Source of the DNA: an uncultured Flavobacteriales bacterium
GTDB taxonomy: Bacteria; Bacteroidota; Bacteroidia; Flavobacteriales_E; Vicingaceae
Direction: 5' to 3'
Length of the DNA: 35,262 nt
Assembly: GCA_905479995.1 (NCBI GenBank)
Contig: CAJQON010000002.1
Span: 1-35,262 of the forward strand
Shown here: one piece after another, positions 31,360 through 34,526 of the stretch
Layout of the letters: each line of letters starts with the position of its first letter
Numbering within the stretch: the first letter of the stretch is position 1
Notes under the pieces: model-generated
Databases searched by the model: none
Told to the model about the DNA's origin: nothing
The model's input: only the letters and a program-made list of their open reading frames with translations
Program-made: the position numbers and the translations under genes

Positions 31360-31923
31360 ATGAAGTACTTAGTTGTCGGTCTTGGAAACATTGGACCAGA
31401 ATACGAAGATACTAGACATAACATAGGGTTTAAAATATTGGATGCTTTAGCTAAAGCATCCAATATTTTTTTTGAACCCAATCGATTGGCCTGCACGGCC
31501 ACTTTAAAATTTAAAGGACGTACCTTTATTTTAGTTAAACCTACCACTTTTATGAACCTAAGTGGCAAAGCGGTAAACTATTACCTGCAATCAGAAAAAA
31601 TTAAGCAAGAAAACCTTTTGGTTATTACTGATGATATTGCTCTACCTTTCGGAACCATTCGTTTAAAAGGTAAAGGAAGCGATGGTGGACACAATGGATT
31701 AAAAGACATTATTAAGGTATTGGGCAACGCCAATTATGCCCGATTACGATTTGGTGTAGGAAGTGATTTTGTTCAAGGAAAACAAATTAATCATGTGCTT
31801 GGAAATTTTGCCCCTGAAGAACAAATTGAAATGGGTGAACGACTAGAAAAAACTACAGCTGTAATTAAAGCCTTTGGAACGATAGGCTTAGGTAGAACTA
31901 TGTCGGAATTTAATGGGAAATAA
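31360..31923 (+). CDS. pth: Peptidyl-tRNA hydrolase
   Basis: This 187-residue enzyme frees tRNA from peptidyl-tRNA dropped by ribosomes. The N-terminal LVVGLGNIGPEYEDTRHNIG carries the catalytic His (in RHNIGF, about residue 22). KPTTFMNLSGKAV and the segment GSDGGHNGLKDIIKVLGNAN are family signatures, with Asp in VITDDIALPFG. The length is normal. It starts 11 bp after rplY and its 3' end overlaps the convergent alpha/beta hydrolase gene by 14 bp. Codons 25-37 contain a 38-bp perfect DNA palindrome, yet the protein sequence there looks normal for the family. Confidence 0.96.
   Translation: MKYLVVGLGNIGPEYEDTRHNIGFKILDALAKASNIFFEPNRLACTATLKFKGRTFILVKPTTFMNLSGKAVNYYLQSEKIKQENLLVITDDIALPFGTIRLKGKGSDGGHNGLKDIIKVLGNANYARLRFGVGSDFVQGKQINHVLGNFAPEEQIEMGERLEKTTAVIKAFGTIGLGRTMSEFNGK
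31432..31469. repeat. Perfect 38-bp palindrome without spacer inside pth
   Basis: The 19 bases 31432-31450 are the exact reverse complement of 31451-31469, and no base separates the arms. As a result both strands encode KILDALAKASNI across the centre. In RNA it would form a very stable hairpin within the pth message, about 70 bases after the start codon. Confidence 0.95.
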
Positions 31924-32701
31924 ATTCCTTAATCAAATTCAAACACTTTTTCTTTTCTTCAAAAAACCCCATATGCCCAACAGTTTCTAACAATTCCAAT
32001 TGACCTTTTTCAGCCAGTTTAGACTGTTCCTTTAAATCTTTGAAAGGCAAAATATTATCTTCTTTTCCAACAATAAACAATACCGGATAAGGTGCAAATT
32101 TCAATACAATTTCTCTATCCAATCTAATCTTCATTCCTTCTAAAGAAGCAATAACTCCTTGTTTTGTTGTATTTAAAGCTATTTTTTTTGATTTTTCTAT
32201 CGCTAAAGTATTTGGCTTAACTGCTGTATTAAACAAATTCGGAATGGCTTCATCTATAAATATTTTTGGATTTCTCTTTACCACTTTAATGGCCCTATCC
32301 CTGTCTTTTTGTTTGGGCAATAAATCAGCTTTTGCCGAAGAATGGAACATACACAAACCTCTTACCTCATCAGGAAAACGCTCAGCCAAAGCTAAACTTA
32401 CATAACCTCCCATAGAATGGCCAACCAAGTAGTATTTTCGCAACTTTAAGTGCTTTATCACTTCAAGTACAGCTTCACTCATTTCTTCCATGGTGTGAAC
32501 GTAACTTAAACTGTCCGTTTTTCCATGGCCTAATAAATCAATAGTAACAACACGAGTGGTTGATGATGCAAGCTGCTTTTGGTAATAGTCCCAAACTGAT
32601 TTATCACCCAAAAAACCGTGTAAAAAAACCACAGTTTTTCCTTTACCTGAATCTGTATATGAAACGTTAATACTCTTAAATGTTATCGTTTGGTTTTTCA
32701 T
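31910..32701 (-). CDS. Alpha/beta-fold hydrolase
   Basis: This 263-residue cytoplasmic hydrolase has the oxyanion-hole motif VVFLHGFLGDKSVWDYY, the nucleophile elbow VGHSMGGY (Ser near residue 95), an acid in GKEDNILPF and the catalytic His in VGHMGFFEE near the C terminus. The triad is therefore complete. A helical cap lies between. The family includes esterases, C-C bond hydrolases and haloperoxidase-like enzymes; the substrate cannot be told from the sequence. The start ATG (32699-32701) is only 12 bp from the boundary repeat of the GIY-YIG element, so that repeat forms its 5' leader or promoter region. The 3' end overlaps pth by 14 bp, convergently. Confidence 0.9.
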   Translation of the reverse strand: MKNQTITFKSINVSYTDSGKGKTVVFLHGFLGDKSVWDYYQKQLASSTTRVVTIDLLGHGKTDSLSYVHTMEEMSEAVLEVIKHLKLRKYYLVGHSMGGYVSLALAERFPDEVRGLCMFHSSAKADLLPKQKDRDRAIKVVKRNPKIFIDEAIPNLFNTAVKPNTLAIEKSKKIALNTTKQGVIASLEGMKIRLDREIVLKFAPYPVLFIVGKEDNILPFKDLKEQSKLAEKGQLELLETVGHMGFFEEKKKCLNLIKEFISH

Positions 32702-32703
32702 TA

Positions 32704-33083
32704 TAGTTACACTGTCATTCCAACCTTGTGAAGGAATCTTTTAATTAAAAATTTGATCATTTAAAAAGTCCCAATTTGGATTTTCACCACTTAGTAAATT
32801 TTCTTTCTTTTTTCTACTCCACTTTTTTAATTGTTTTTCTCTTTCAATTGCATGTGTTATATCATAAAAATGTTCAACGTAAATAAGTTTATAACAATAA
32901 TATCTCCCAGCAAAAGTTTTTGGTTTTCCTTTATTTTCTTGATGCTCAAATAATCTTCGTTTCAAATCATTCGTAACTCCAATATATAAAACTGTTTTAT
33001 CAGGATTAGTAGTTATATAAACATAGTAATTGCTGCCCATTAAAAAAGATTTCTCGACTACGCTGCTCTTAGCTCGAAATGAC
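32704..33083 (-). mobile_element. Candidate small mobile element: inverted repeats enclosing a GIY-YIG gene
   Basis: The left end (from 32714) reads GTCATTCCAACCTTGTGAAG then GAATCTTTT. The right end, read on the minus strand, starts GTCATTTCGAGC at 33083 and reaches GAGAAATCTTTTTT at about 33042. The two ends are imperfect inverted repeats about 30-42 bases long. The GIY-YIG frame fills the space between them almost completely. Both this element and the 106-bp element 34 bp away have TAGTTAYACT just before the left end. I see no clear target-site duplication. That it moves is inference. Confidence 0.5.
32741..33040 (-). CDS. GIY-YIG nuclease superfamily protein (single domain)
   Basis: This 99-residue protein of the small GIY-YIG (UPF0213/YhbQ-like) type has YYVYITTN and VLYIGVTNDLKRRLFEH, which supply the two GIY/YIG strands and the catalytic Arg region. 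HAIEREKQLKKWSRKKK provides the metal-binding Glu helix, and NPNWDFL closes the domain. There is no DNA-binding domain besides this. Small GIY-YIG genes of this kind are common and often multicopy in Bacteroidota. Its stop codon touches the left repeat and its start is 1-2 bases from the right repeat, so gene and repeats probably form one unit. What it cuts, if anything, is unknown. Confidence 0.88.
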   Translation of the reverse strand: MGSNYYVYITTNPDKTVLYIGVTNDLKRRLFEHQENKGKPKTFAGRYYCYKLIYVEHFYDITHAIEREKQLKKWSRKKKENLLSGENPNWDFLNDQIFN

Positions 33084-33116
33084 TAAGGTATTAATTTTAT
33101 CATTTTAATTCCCTTT

Positions 33117-33232
33117 TAGTTATACTGTCATTCCGACCTTGTGGAGGAATCTTTTTAGTTAAGAACTAAAAACATTATTATTATTATCCATTTAAAGATT
33201 TCTCAACTCCTAGTTTCTGCGTTCGAAATGAC
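33117..33232. repeat. Short repeat element related to the GIY-YIG element (no gene inside)
   Basis: The left end GTCATTCCGACCTTGTGGAG then GAATCTTTTT (from 33127) is nearly identical to the left end of the neighbouring element. The right end (to 33232), read on the minus strand, begins GTCATTTCGAACGCAG and runs to GAGAAATCTTTAAATGG. The inside is about 30 bases, including a small stem (TTTTTAGTT/AACTAAAAA). The CCATTTAAAGAT just inside the right end corresponds to the GIY-YIG start codon region of the larger element, so this may be an internally deleted copy. It lies just past the stop of the M24 gene. Confidence 0.65.
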
Positions 33233-33239
33233 AAGATAA

Positions 33240-34526
33240 TTAAGCCATTAAAGCTTCAATCTCATCTGCTTCCAATGGAATGTTTCCCATTAAATCCAAC
33301 TGCCCATTTTCGGTAATAAGAACATCATTTTCTAAACGAATACCCAAATCCTCTTCTGGAATATAAATACCTGGCTCTACTGTTAATATCATTCCTACTT
33401 CAAACGGACGATTACGTTCTTCTACATCATGAACATCTAAGCCCATATGGTGAGATGTTCCGTGCATAAAGTACTTTTTATATAAAGGACTTTTAGGATC
33501 TTGATTGGCTACAGCATCCTTATCTAATAATCCTAATCCAATTAGCTCATTTTCCATCAACCTACCTACTTCATCATGATAATCATTATGCAAAGTTCCA
33601 GGAACCAACATAGCAGTTGCTCCTTTCATTACTCTTAAAACAGCATTGTAAACGTCTTTTTGTCTCGGTGTAAATTTTCCGCTTACTGGTATACATCGCG
33701 TCATATCAGATGCATAATTTGCATACTCCGCACCAATGTCTAATAAGATTACATCTCCAGCCTTACACTCTTTATTATTATCTACATAATGCAAAACACA
33801 AGCACTTGCACCTGAAGCAATAATAGGTTCGTAAGCAAATCCTCTTGATCGGTTCATTAAAAACTCATGGGCTAACTCTGCTTCTATTTCGTATTCTTTC
33901 ACACCTGGCTTTACAAAGTTTAACAACCTTCTAAATCCTTTTTCGGTAATGTTACAAGCATGCTGAATCGTATCTATTTCCAGTTGAGATTTGATTGGTC
34001 TCAATTTTCTCATAATTGGAGCCAAACGCTCGTATTCATGGTCAGGATATTTTGCTTTGCAATCTTTTCTAAATCTACCGTCTCTTGTTTCAACCGTAAC
34101 AATTGCTCTTAAGTGCTCATTTTGGTTTAAATAAATATGCTCAGCTTCAGTAACTAAACTATGAAATATGTTTTCAAAATCGGTTAACCAACAAATGGTT
34201 TGAACACCAGATTGTTTGGTAGCTGCCTCCTTATCTAACTTTGCTCCTTCCCAAATGGCAATTAGCTCACTTGTTTCTTTTACAAAAAGTATTTCTCTGT
34301 GCTTTGGGTTAGATGCGTTTGGCGCAATAACCAAAATAGATTCTTCCTGGTCTACTCCACTTAAATACAACAAATCGTTATTCTGGCGAAATGGCATAAG
34401 CCCATCTGCGTTGGTTGGCATTAAATCGTTAGAATTAAACACTGCTACCGAGTTAGGTTTTAAGTGCTTTACAAAGTTTTTTCTGTTATTAATGTATAAC
34501 GAATTATCGATTGCTGTATATTTCAT
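33240..34526 (-). CDS. Xaa-Pro aminopeptidase (M24B, aminopeptidase P family)
   Basis: This 428-residue metallopeptidase removes N-terminal residues before proline. The N-terminal creatinase-like domain (about 1-165) has ADGLMPFRQNNDLLYLSGVD, as in PepP. The pita-bread domain carries all metal ligands: Asp in ILLDIGAEY, Asp in NYASDMTR, His in HGTSHHMGLDVHDV, Glu in TVEPGIYIPEEDLGIRLE and the final Glu in RLENDVLI. The length is close to E. coli PepP (about 440). It lies 30 bp after the antiporter gene and may be co-transcribed with it, although a perfect -7 box sits in the gap. The repeat element follows its stop within 8 bp. Confidence 0.94.
   Translation of the reverse strand: MKYTAIDNSLYINNRKNFVKHLKPNSVAVFNSNDLMPTNADGLMPFRQNNDLLYLSGVDQEESILVIAPNASNPKHREILFVKETSELIAIWEGAKLDKEAATKQSGVQTICWLTDFENIFHSLVTEAEHIYLNQNEHLRAIVTVETRDGRFRKDCKAKYPDHEYERLAPIMRKLRPIKSQLEIDTIQHACNITEKGFRRLLNFVKPGVKEYEIEAELAHEFLMNRSRGFAYEPIIASGASACVLHYVDNNKECKAGDVILLDIGAEYANYASDMTRCIPVSGKFTPRQKDVYNAVLRVMKGATAMLVPGTLHNDYHDEVGRLMENELIGLGLLDKDAVANQDPKSPLYKKYFMHGTSHHMGLDVHDVEERNRPFEVGMILTVEPGIYIPEEDLGIRLENDVLITENGQLDLMGNIPLEADEIEALMA

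Follow-up and report, generated by a model that had tools for sequence, protein, structure and literature searches.

The 35,262-nucleotide stretch analyzed here (the window), from an uncultured Flavobacteriales bacterium of the Vicingaceae, contains a 370-bp unit that is completely filled by one small GIY-YIG nuclease gene and is tagged with GTC at both ends. Such units are probably minimal, REP-like selfish elements, consisting of outward-tagged inverted hairpins, a GIY-YIG gene and gene-less copies, with the nuclease acting on its own folded ends. Comparison of genomes shows that gene and ends are matched by clade and that both come and go at orthologous sites, and likewise that gene-less copies arise which keep the ends of the gene.

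The nuclease gene of the window lies on the reverse strand (32741-33040) and encodes 99 amino acids (PF01541, E 2.2e-18). It is bounded by a stop-side arm (32714-32739, forward strand; GTCATTCCAACC...GGAATCT) and a start-side arm (33047-33083, reverse strand; GTCATTTCGAG...GAGAAATCT), imperfect hairpins of opposite orientation whose GTC tags both point outward. The stop codon is 1 nt from the core of the former and the start codon 6 nt from the latter, in keeping with the original prediction of a GIY-YIG frame that fills its element. The unit is located between the host genes for an alpha/beta hydrolase (31910-32701) and an M24 aminopeptidase P family protein (33240-34526), both on the reverse strand. 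The tag reads TGTC in three of the four arms of the window (the stop-side arm and both arms of a gene-less copy nearby) and AGTC in the start-side arm. A loose arm pattern, composed after the arms had been read, has three matches in the window, where 100 shuffles average 0.00. The one arm that it misses, at 32714-32739, has CAA in place of CGA. The ends of the filled unit are inverted only in plan (GTCATTYC...RAATCTTTT), and a generic inverted-repeat test of the locus with 250-bp flanks did not reach significance, 98 of 200 shuffles scoring equally well. The four arms fold weakly (z -1.3, 0.0, 0.1 and -0.1), and the ATTCC/GGAAT stem is 5 bp long, short of the 8-9 bp specified for CGTC-tagged REPs.

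The catalytic residues of the GIY-YIG domain are Tyr, Tyr, Arg and Glu. Residues Y8, Y19, R29, H33 and E68 are invariant among 34 aligned sequences, and the conserved residues stand at the positions expected for catalysis, going by the roles generally given for this domain. An AlphaFold2 model of the 99-residue protein has a mean pLDDT of 90.8; its nearest solved fold is that of the UPF0213 protein 1zg2 (Foldseek, E 5e-4), and Slx1, UvrC and I-TevI are weaker matches (E 0.03 to 1.4). The ratio dN/dS is 0.04-0.17 in the seven of ten gene pairs with finite dS, dS being high in some of these seven and saturated in the other three. By this measure, the nuclease genes are under purifying selection.

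A gene-less copy of exactly 106 bp (33127-33232), the length originally given for it, is found 43 nt beyond the filled unit. It comprises a first arm on the forward strand (33127-33152; hairpin ATTCC/GGAAT, -3.4 kcal/mol, z only -1.3), a linker in which a gene remnant is not demonstrable (33153-33195) and a second arm on the reverse strand (33196-33232); the folding z of the whole copy is -1.9. The two elements had been described as sharing one end and having similar opposite ends, and both resemblances were recovered: 54 nt at 83% (32696-32749 and 33109-33162) and 50 nt at 70% (33045-33094 and 33194-33243). The further claim that the short copy keeps the region around the lost start codon is not supported, as 113 of 1000 shuffles match the gene start equally well. 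Comparison of the copy with both ends of five genes (the window's and those of four relatives) gave 43 of 2000 shuffles as the best of ten results, which is not significant after correction.

Ten bases immediately outside the filled unit (32704-32713, forward strand) match nine of the ten outside the gene-less one (33117-33126). Since the shared stretch thus includes about 10 bases that lie outside the element (TAGTTAYACT), the neighbor may be a local duplicate, and it is probably one that is without its former gene. For this pair only, tandem duplication of the unit with its flanks, followed by loss of the gene from one copy, is slightly favored and would leave no need for transposition. Besides the common outer bases, it is supported by the frequency of neighboring direct copies at GIY-YIG loci: a further direct copy occurs within 250 bp in 12 of 30 loci of the genus (direct score of at least 40, the largest shuffled score being 29 in shuffles made for the inverted comparison). 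The linker, which has no significant gene remnant, argues against it. Among the 14 junctions read between the same two host genes, a gene-less copy of the window's arm type (F1) standing alone was not found; three have gene-less pairs of a type other than F1.

Seven protein-search rows correspond to five small GIY-YIG loci in the window's own genome, and a family search adds just one frame, whose size of 614 amino acids indicates that it is presumably UvrC. All five loci have repeats at both gene ends when the flanks are judged by eye; four of them appear inverted and the fifth (L004) direct, and the start-side arm of L002 has lost its tag. A broken copy (C2:53122-53416) is the sole close subfamily member besides the window's gene and has the same arm type, so that subfamily genes lacking these ends, the finding that would have spoken against the original prediction, are absent from this genome. 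The other three loci have arm types unlike that of the window. The genome has seven F1 arms, of which three are at the window, one is at the broken copy and three are elsewhere. It also has eight arms of another type, F3 (GTCAGTTCGAGT...TATCGAGAAC). A reversed-pattern control gave none.

Within the genus, GIY-YIG matches at E 1e-8 occur at 41 places in 11 of 14 genomes. Thirty-one places were examined, with ten left out, and one of the 31 ends at a contig edge, leaving 30 loci for testing. Inverted flanks are present in 23 of the 30 (at most 2 of 200 shuffles as good), and the seven that fail this generic test include the window's. The arms of 29 loci fall by eye into eight types, with judgment calls in placing L002 with the window's type and L023 with the GTCATTGCG type. 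Most follow one plan of GTC tag, short stem, loop and stem, with stems such as ATTCC/GGAAT (window), ATTGC/GCAAT, GTTC/GAAC and ATACC/GGTAT. When these by-eye classes are placed on a maximum-likelihood tree of the 29 genus proteins without internal stops, the eight types require seven changes, which is the minimum; shuffled labels require a mean of 19.6, and none of 200 shuffles is as low. F1 and F8 each fall on more than one branch of the best tree, where support is weak. A label-free test gave the same picture: the similarity of the arms rises with the identity of the proteins, both over 97 loci (rho 0.42) and over 27 loci of the genus alone (rho 0.38), with none of 500 permutations as high in either case. 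For control flanks at a distance of 600-700 bp, rho is -0.005. A single genome carries several clades whose arms differ, which argues that the match is not a genome-wide background. That gene and ends behave as a unit is therefore supported, the arm class tracking the protein tree. At L012 (G001:C110:17257-18426), five direct copies of the F1-type arm surround one GIY-YIG gene, a sign of local amplification. The 60 bases read on either side of the gene at L025 (G007) are identical to those at L052, from a Vicingus serpentipes MAG, so that Vicingus (Flavobacteriales) is the probable genus.

Of 85 distinct F3 arms, 73 have an inner stem that runs for 5 bp or more without interruption, compared to 6.5% of shuffles and 22% of half-swapped copies, and these arms contain 53 different stem sequences. 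Judged from this pairing, the F3 hairpin is conserved though its letters change. In 42 stretches taken around strict arms in G005, G001 and G000 (the window's genome), neighboring F3 arms are arranged head-head in 20, head-tail in two and tail-tail in none; the remaining 20 stretches are single-armed. A strict tag-plus-stem test, which does not catch F3 arms, was applied to 29 loci of the genus, with 1 and 4 hits in 111 control windows. It found nine outward and four inward arms upstream of the gene and 14 outward and six inward arms downstream, and 15 of the 29 loci have no arm of the expected strand on either side. Inside the left arm of F1, the length is variable and an extra hairpin can be present (e.g., TTCCGAAAGCTTTCGGAA), as at L234 (G002) and G001:C90:303-352, as if hairpins had been inserted into hairpins.

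Orthologous junctions reveal the unit in several states. The junction between the pepP-like peptidase and hydrolase genes, which holds the window unit, was read 14 times in 13 genomes. Two of the 14 contain a GIY-YIG unit (the window's genome and G011), three contain gene-less pairs of another type, two an unrelated repeat and one other DNA; the remaining six are clean, with matched gene ends 6-22 nt apart. Loci L039 and L041 at this junction, from two genomes, have a different palindromic repeat of CTCAAGGGAGG / CCTTGAGGGAGGATTAAGGTGG type, and L042 (G002) has a short element, GTCATACTGAGCTTGTCGAAGTATTA, seemingly nested in an arm of another type. At the hemL-hemE junction (11 loci), the unit in the window's genome contains a broken gene. 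Gene-less F1 pairs occur there in two genomes and half a pair in another, and two genomes are clean with 12 nt between the genes; five loci hold other DNA or are unreadable as far as hemL. One of the clean genomes is G008, in which hemE is 96% identical. In G012 (L163:1088-1495) and G005 (L165), hemL-hemE contains a gene for a protein of the 23S rRNA intervening-sequence family. The G012 copy matches PF05635 (E 2.6e-27) and has partly inverted flanks (21 nt, 81% complementary), and the PF05635 gene is perhaps a second kind of one-gene unit at the same site. At the glycosyltransferase-pyrC junction (12 loci), the window's genome has both a gene-less and a filled unit, and G005 has arms around a decayed GIY-YIG gene (none of 500 shuffles resembles the gene as closely). 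G007 has a gene-less pair of another type there, while a similar remnant is present in G002 and a half in G006; four loci are clean (8-52 nt) and three are unreadable across. The unit is thus present, gene-less, decayed or absent at three junctions, the polymorphism that would be expected of the mobile element originally proposed.

Gene-less relatives with the same kind of ends are scattered through the genus. Among 20 stretches tried, 16 in six genomes are gene-less F1 elements, 80-102 bp long, in which a loose pattern recognizes the two ends, and a TACTAAAAA-like linker is, by eye, common to 12 of the 16. Two copies preserve parts of a gene. The copy beside L002 in the window's genome keeps the leader and first codons (0 of 1000 shuffles) as well as the last codons (0 of 1000). 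In G002, the gene-less unit between hemL and hemE (L164) retains the final codons of L010, an intact gene (0 of 500 shuffles), which lies approximately 1.3 kb away on the same contig; the start of L010 has no match in it (368 of 500 shuffles). The retention of gene ends indicates that these two copies descend from filled ones. The original notion of an autonomous element with a MITE-like derivative is thus carried by two copies elsewhere rather than by the window's own 106-bp copy, which has no significant remnant. A target duplication was sought in 36 flank pairs, and no consistent excess was found, small excesses being seen only at 5 and 7 nt (three and two of the 36).

Dependence of the arms on the gene was assessed with F3 in 46 genomes of the family. 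At a cut-off of E 1e-40, chosen after the list was seen and close to the 1.3e-39 of L017, a protein whose arms are of another type, the F3 arm is present in 9 of 9 genomes with the F3-type gene and in 11 of 37 without it (p 1.5e-4). The corresponding values are 8 of 8 versus 12 of 38 at 1e-50, 9 of 13 versus 11 of 33 at 1e-36 (p 0.046) and 9 of 14 versus 11 of 32 at 1e-30 (p 0.10); within the genus, the link is not significant (7 of 7 versus 4 of 7, p 0.19). Given the post hoc cut-off and inflation by relatedness, little weight is placed on this association. Arms are also found without a cognate gene, including eight F3 arms in G012 and F1 arms in G007, G012 and G013. These show that gene-less copies outlive or outspread the gene.

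The arrangement extends beyond the genus. Species genomes were scanned with five proteins of the genus, and the best 80 of at least 418 relatives were taken; the 80 loci are the best-scoring ones of one protein subfamily and do not constitute a census. They come from Bacteroidota, Patescibacteria, Chloroflexi, Nitrospirae, Proteobacteria and others. Among these best 80, inverted-repeat flanks beyond 198 of 200 shuffles are present in 55 of 77 testable loci, a count that includes one locus (L065) with a masked flank that should not count. When partners were swapped between loci, 37 of the 77 also passed. Since the arms are alike between loci, the figure of 55 argues for a common arm type and not for pairing within a locus. 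The tag-plus-stem test on 75 loci of the same best 80 found 49 outward and six inward arms upstream and 44 outward and 11 inward downstream, versus 7 of 278 control windows on each strand; under its strict form, 16 of the 75 have no arm of the expected strand on either side.

Many of these distant arms match the definition of CGTC-tagged REPs, taken here as a CGTC or TGTC tag at one end, an 8-9 bp stem starting with AT, a 4-5 nt loop and a CCA-like tail, with one stem mismatch and one tail mismatch tolerated. Within the best 80 of at least 418, 29 of 75 loci have such a repeat on both sides. An outward-tagged one is present upstream in 43 of the 75 (inward in 3) and downstream in 36 (inward in 6), and control windows gave 0 and 4 of 278. 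By the same definition, the 29 loci of the genus have one repeat upstream, three downstream and none on both sides. The rarity of matches in the genus indicates that the window arms represent a variant form, their stems being shorter and their loops longer. The original guess that the element could explain one type of repeat in Bacteroidota was too narrow in reach, as there is more than one repeat type, each matched to a nuclease clade of its own, and several phyla are involved.

The conserved residues, the GIY-YIG model, the retained pairing of F3 arms and the clade matching together suggest that the unit's own folded ends are what the protein acts on. GIY-YIG enzymes hydrolyze DNA and cannot by themselves join ends. 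Joining must therefore fall to host repair or replication. The nuclease would recognize and nick its own ends when these are folded as hairpins in single-stranded DNA, which could arise during replication, repair or DNA uptake. Host repair would then complete copying into new intergenic sites, much as in REP/RAYT systems, with a hydrolytic nuclease in place of the tyrosine transposase. Cutting by the protein, a preference for single strands and the step from cutting to spread are what we infer.

A different role is conceivable for the same enzyme. The Ssn nucleases, said to have been described in Nature Communications in 2025, are GIY-YIG proteins that reportedly cut single strands at a repeat, named NTS, present in hundreds of copies in Neisseria. 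The nucleases described here could similarly cut their repeats in incoming single-stranded DNA and so tune transformation or recombination, with recombination and selection, not mobilization, spreading the repeats. This reading is rather doubtful as a full account. It draws on the properties reported for the Ssn family and on the neisserial repeat dRS3, ATTCCC(N8)GGGAAT (PMC3898611), which equals the CGTC-1 REP (PMC3733652) and has the same plan as the arms here. On its own, however, it leaves unexplained the presence of a gene with its two arms at junctions where relatives have nothing, the gene-less copies with gene ends, and the occurrence of several clades with several arm types in one genome.

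The repeat pairs might instead be older than their genes, with the nuclease gene homing into empty pairs that it had cut and the arms serving as homology. The gene abuts the arms in most loci whose flanks were read, and the direct copies near 12 of 30 genus loci would suit such a process. Yet at least the two gene-less copies that keep gene ends come from filled ones, and both filled and gene-less units separate genes that in relatives have 6-22 nt between them. The window's genome also has its unit where G008 is armless (19 nt at pepP-hydrolase and 12 nt at hemL-hemE), unless the unit was lost in G008. Homing as the origin of the arrangement is thus unlikely. Far less probable still is that the GIY-YIG genes are passengers with no functional link to their surroundings, merely residing in intergenic DNA rich in terminator-like repeats. 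The repeats are indeed intergenic and hairpin-like, as terminators are, but the outward orientation bias and the match of arms to clade, set against the control at 600-700 bp, disfavor this reading.

If the selfish-unit reading is correct, it provides sequence-matched candidates for single-strand nucleases and might explain many scattered intergenic hairpins of Bacteroidota. The same arrangement of a gene between repeats in several phyla points to an enzyme for repeats thought to have none, and the pairing of GIY-YIG clade with repeat type makes the question of the missing transposase of CGTC REPs directly testable. The broader proposal is that small GIY-YIG nucleases are the missing enzymes of GTC-tagged repeats across bacteria, forming a mobile class, parallel but unrelated to REP/RAYT, in which each clade owns its repeats and the units spread through hydrolytic nicking of their folded single-stranded ends followed by host repair. 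It is offered tentatively, as a little short of an even chance. Should the Ssn work already cover Bacteroidota, the novelty would consist of the mobile-unit evidence alone.

CGTC-tagged REPs are known from five phyla and include neisserial dRS3 and two rickettsial RPE families (Di Nocera et al. 2013, PMC3733652). In that survey, they 'apparently lack a dedicated transposase', association with a transposase gene is listed as absent in Table 1, head-head pairs are noted, and dRS3 repeats are equated with CGTC-1 (PMC3733652); almost 700 copies of dRS3 are given for Neisseria (PMC3898611). The units described here resemble CGTC REPs in the GTC tag, the AT-starting stem, the head-head pairs and the intergenic location, and differ in having a GIY-YIG gene inside the pair where no transposase is associated (PMC3733652). 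Word searches of titles and the starts of abstracts found no paper tying GIY-YIG genes to REP-type repeats, and the passages searched in PMC12306157 and PMC5896051 make no mention of GIY or nuclease. In fold and size, the protein is like UPF0213 and other small GIY-YIG proteins (1zg2, 1ywl), solved members that are named hypothetical proteins. The gene-less copies of 80-102 bp are like MITEs in having the ends of the gene-bearing unit, two of them keeping gene ends; unlike MITEs, which have plain terminal inverted repeats, the ends are tagged hairpins, and no consistent target duplication is seen.

The paired-hairpin arrangement of REP/RAYT systems is known as a REPIN. According to PMC3733652, REP/RAYT systems share with the units described here one small nuclease gene between tagged hairpins and many gene-less paired hairpins. 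The enzymes differ, as RAYT belongs to the tyrosine transposases of IS200/IS605 type whereas the window unit encodes a GIY-YIG protein of unrelated fold. The nearest enzymes to the window nuclease are, we assume, the Ssn nucleases. Ssn is reportedly likewise a small GIY-YIG protein tied to a many-copy repeat, copies of which both surround the gene and occur at other places in the genome. Relative to Ssn, the mobility of the unit is the added claim.
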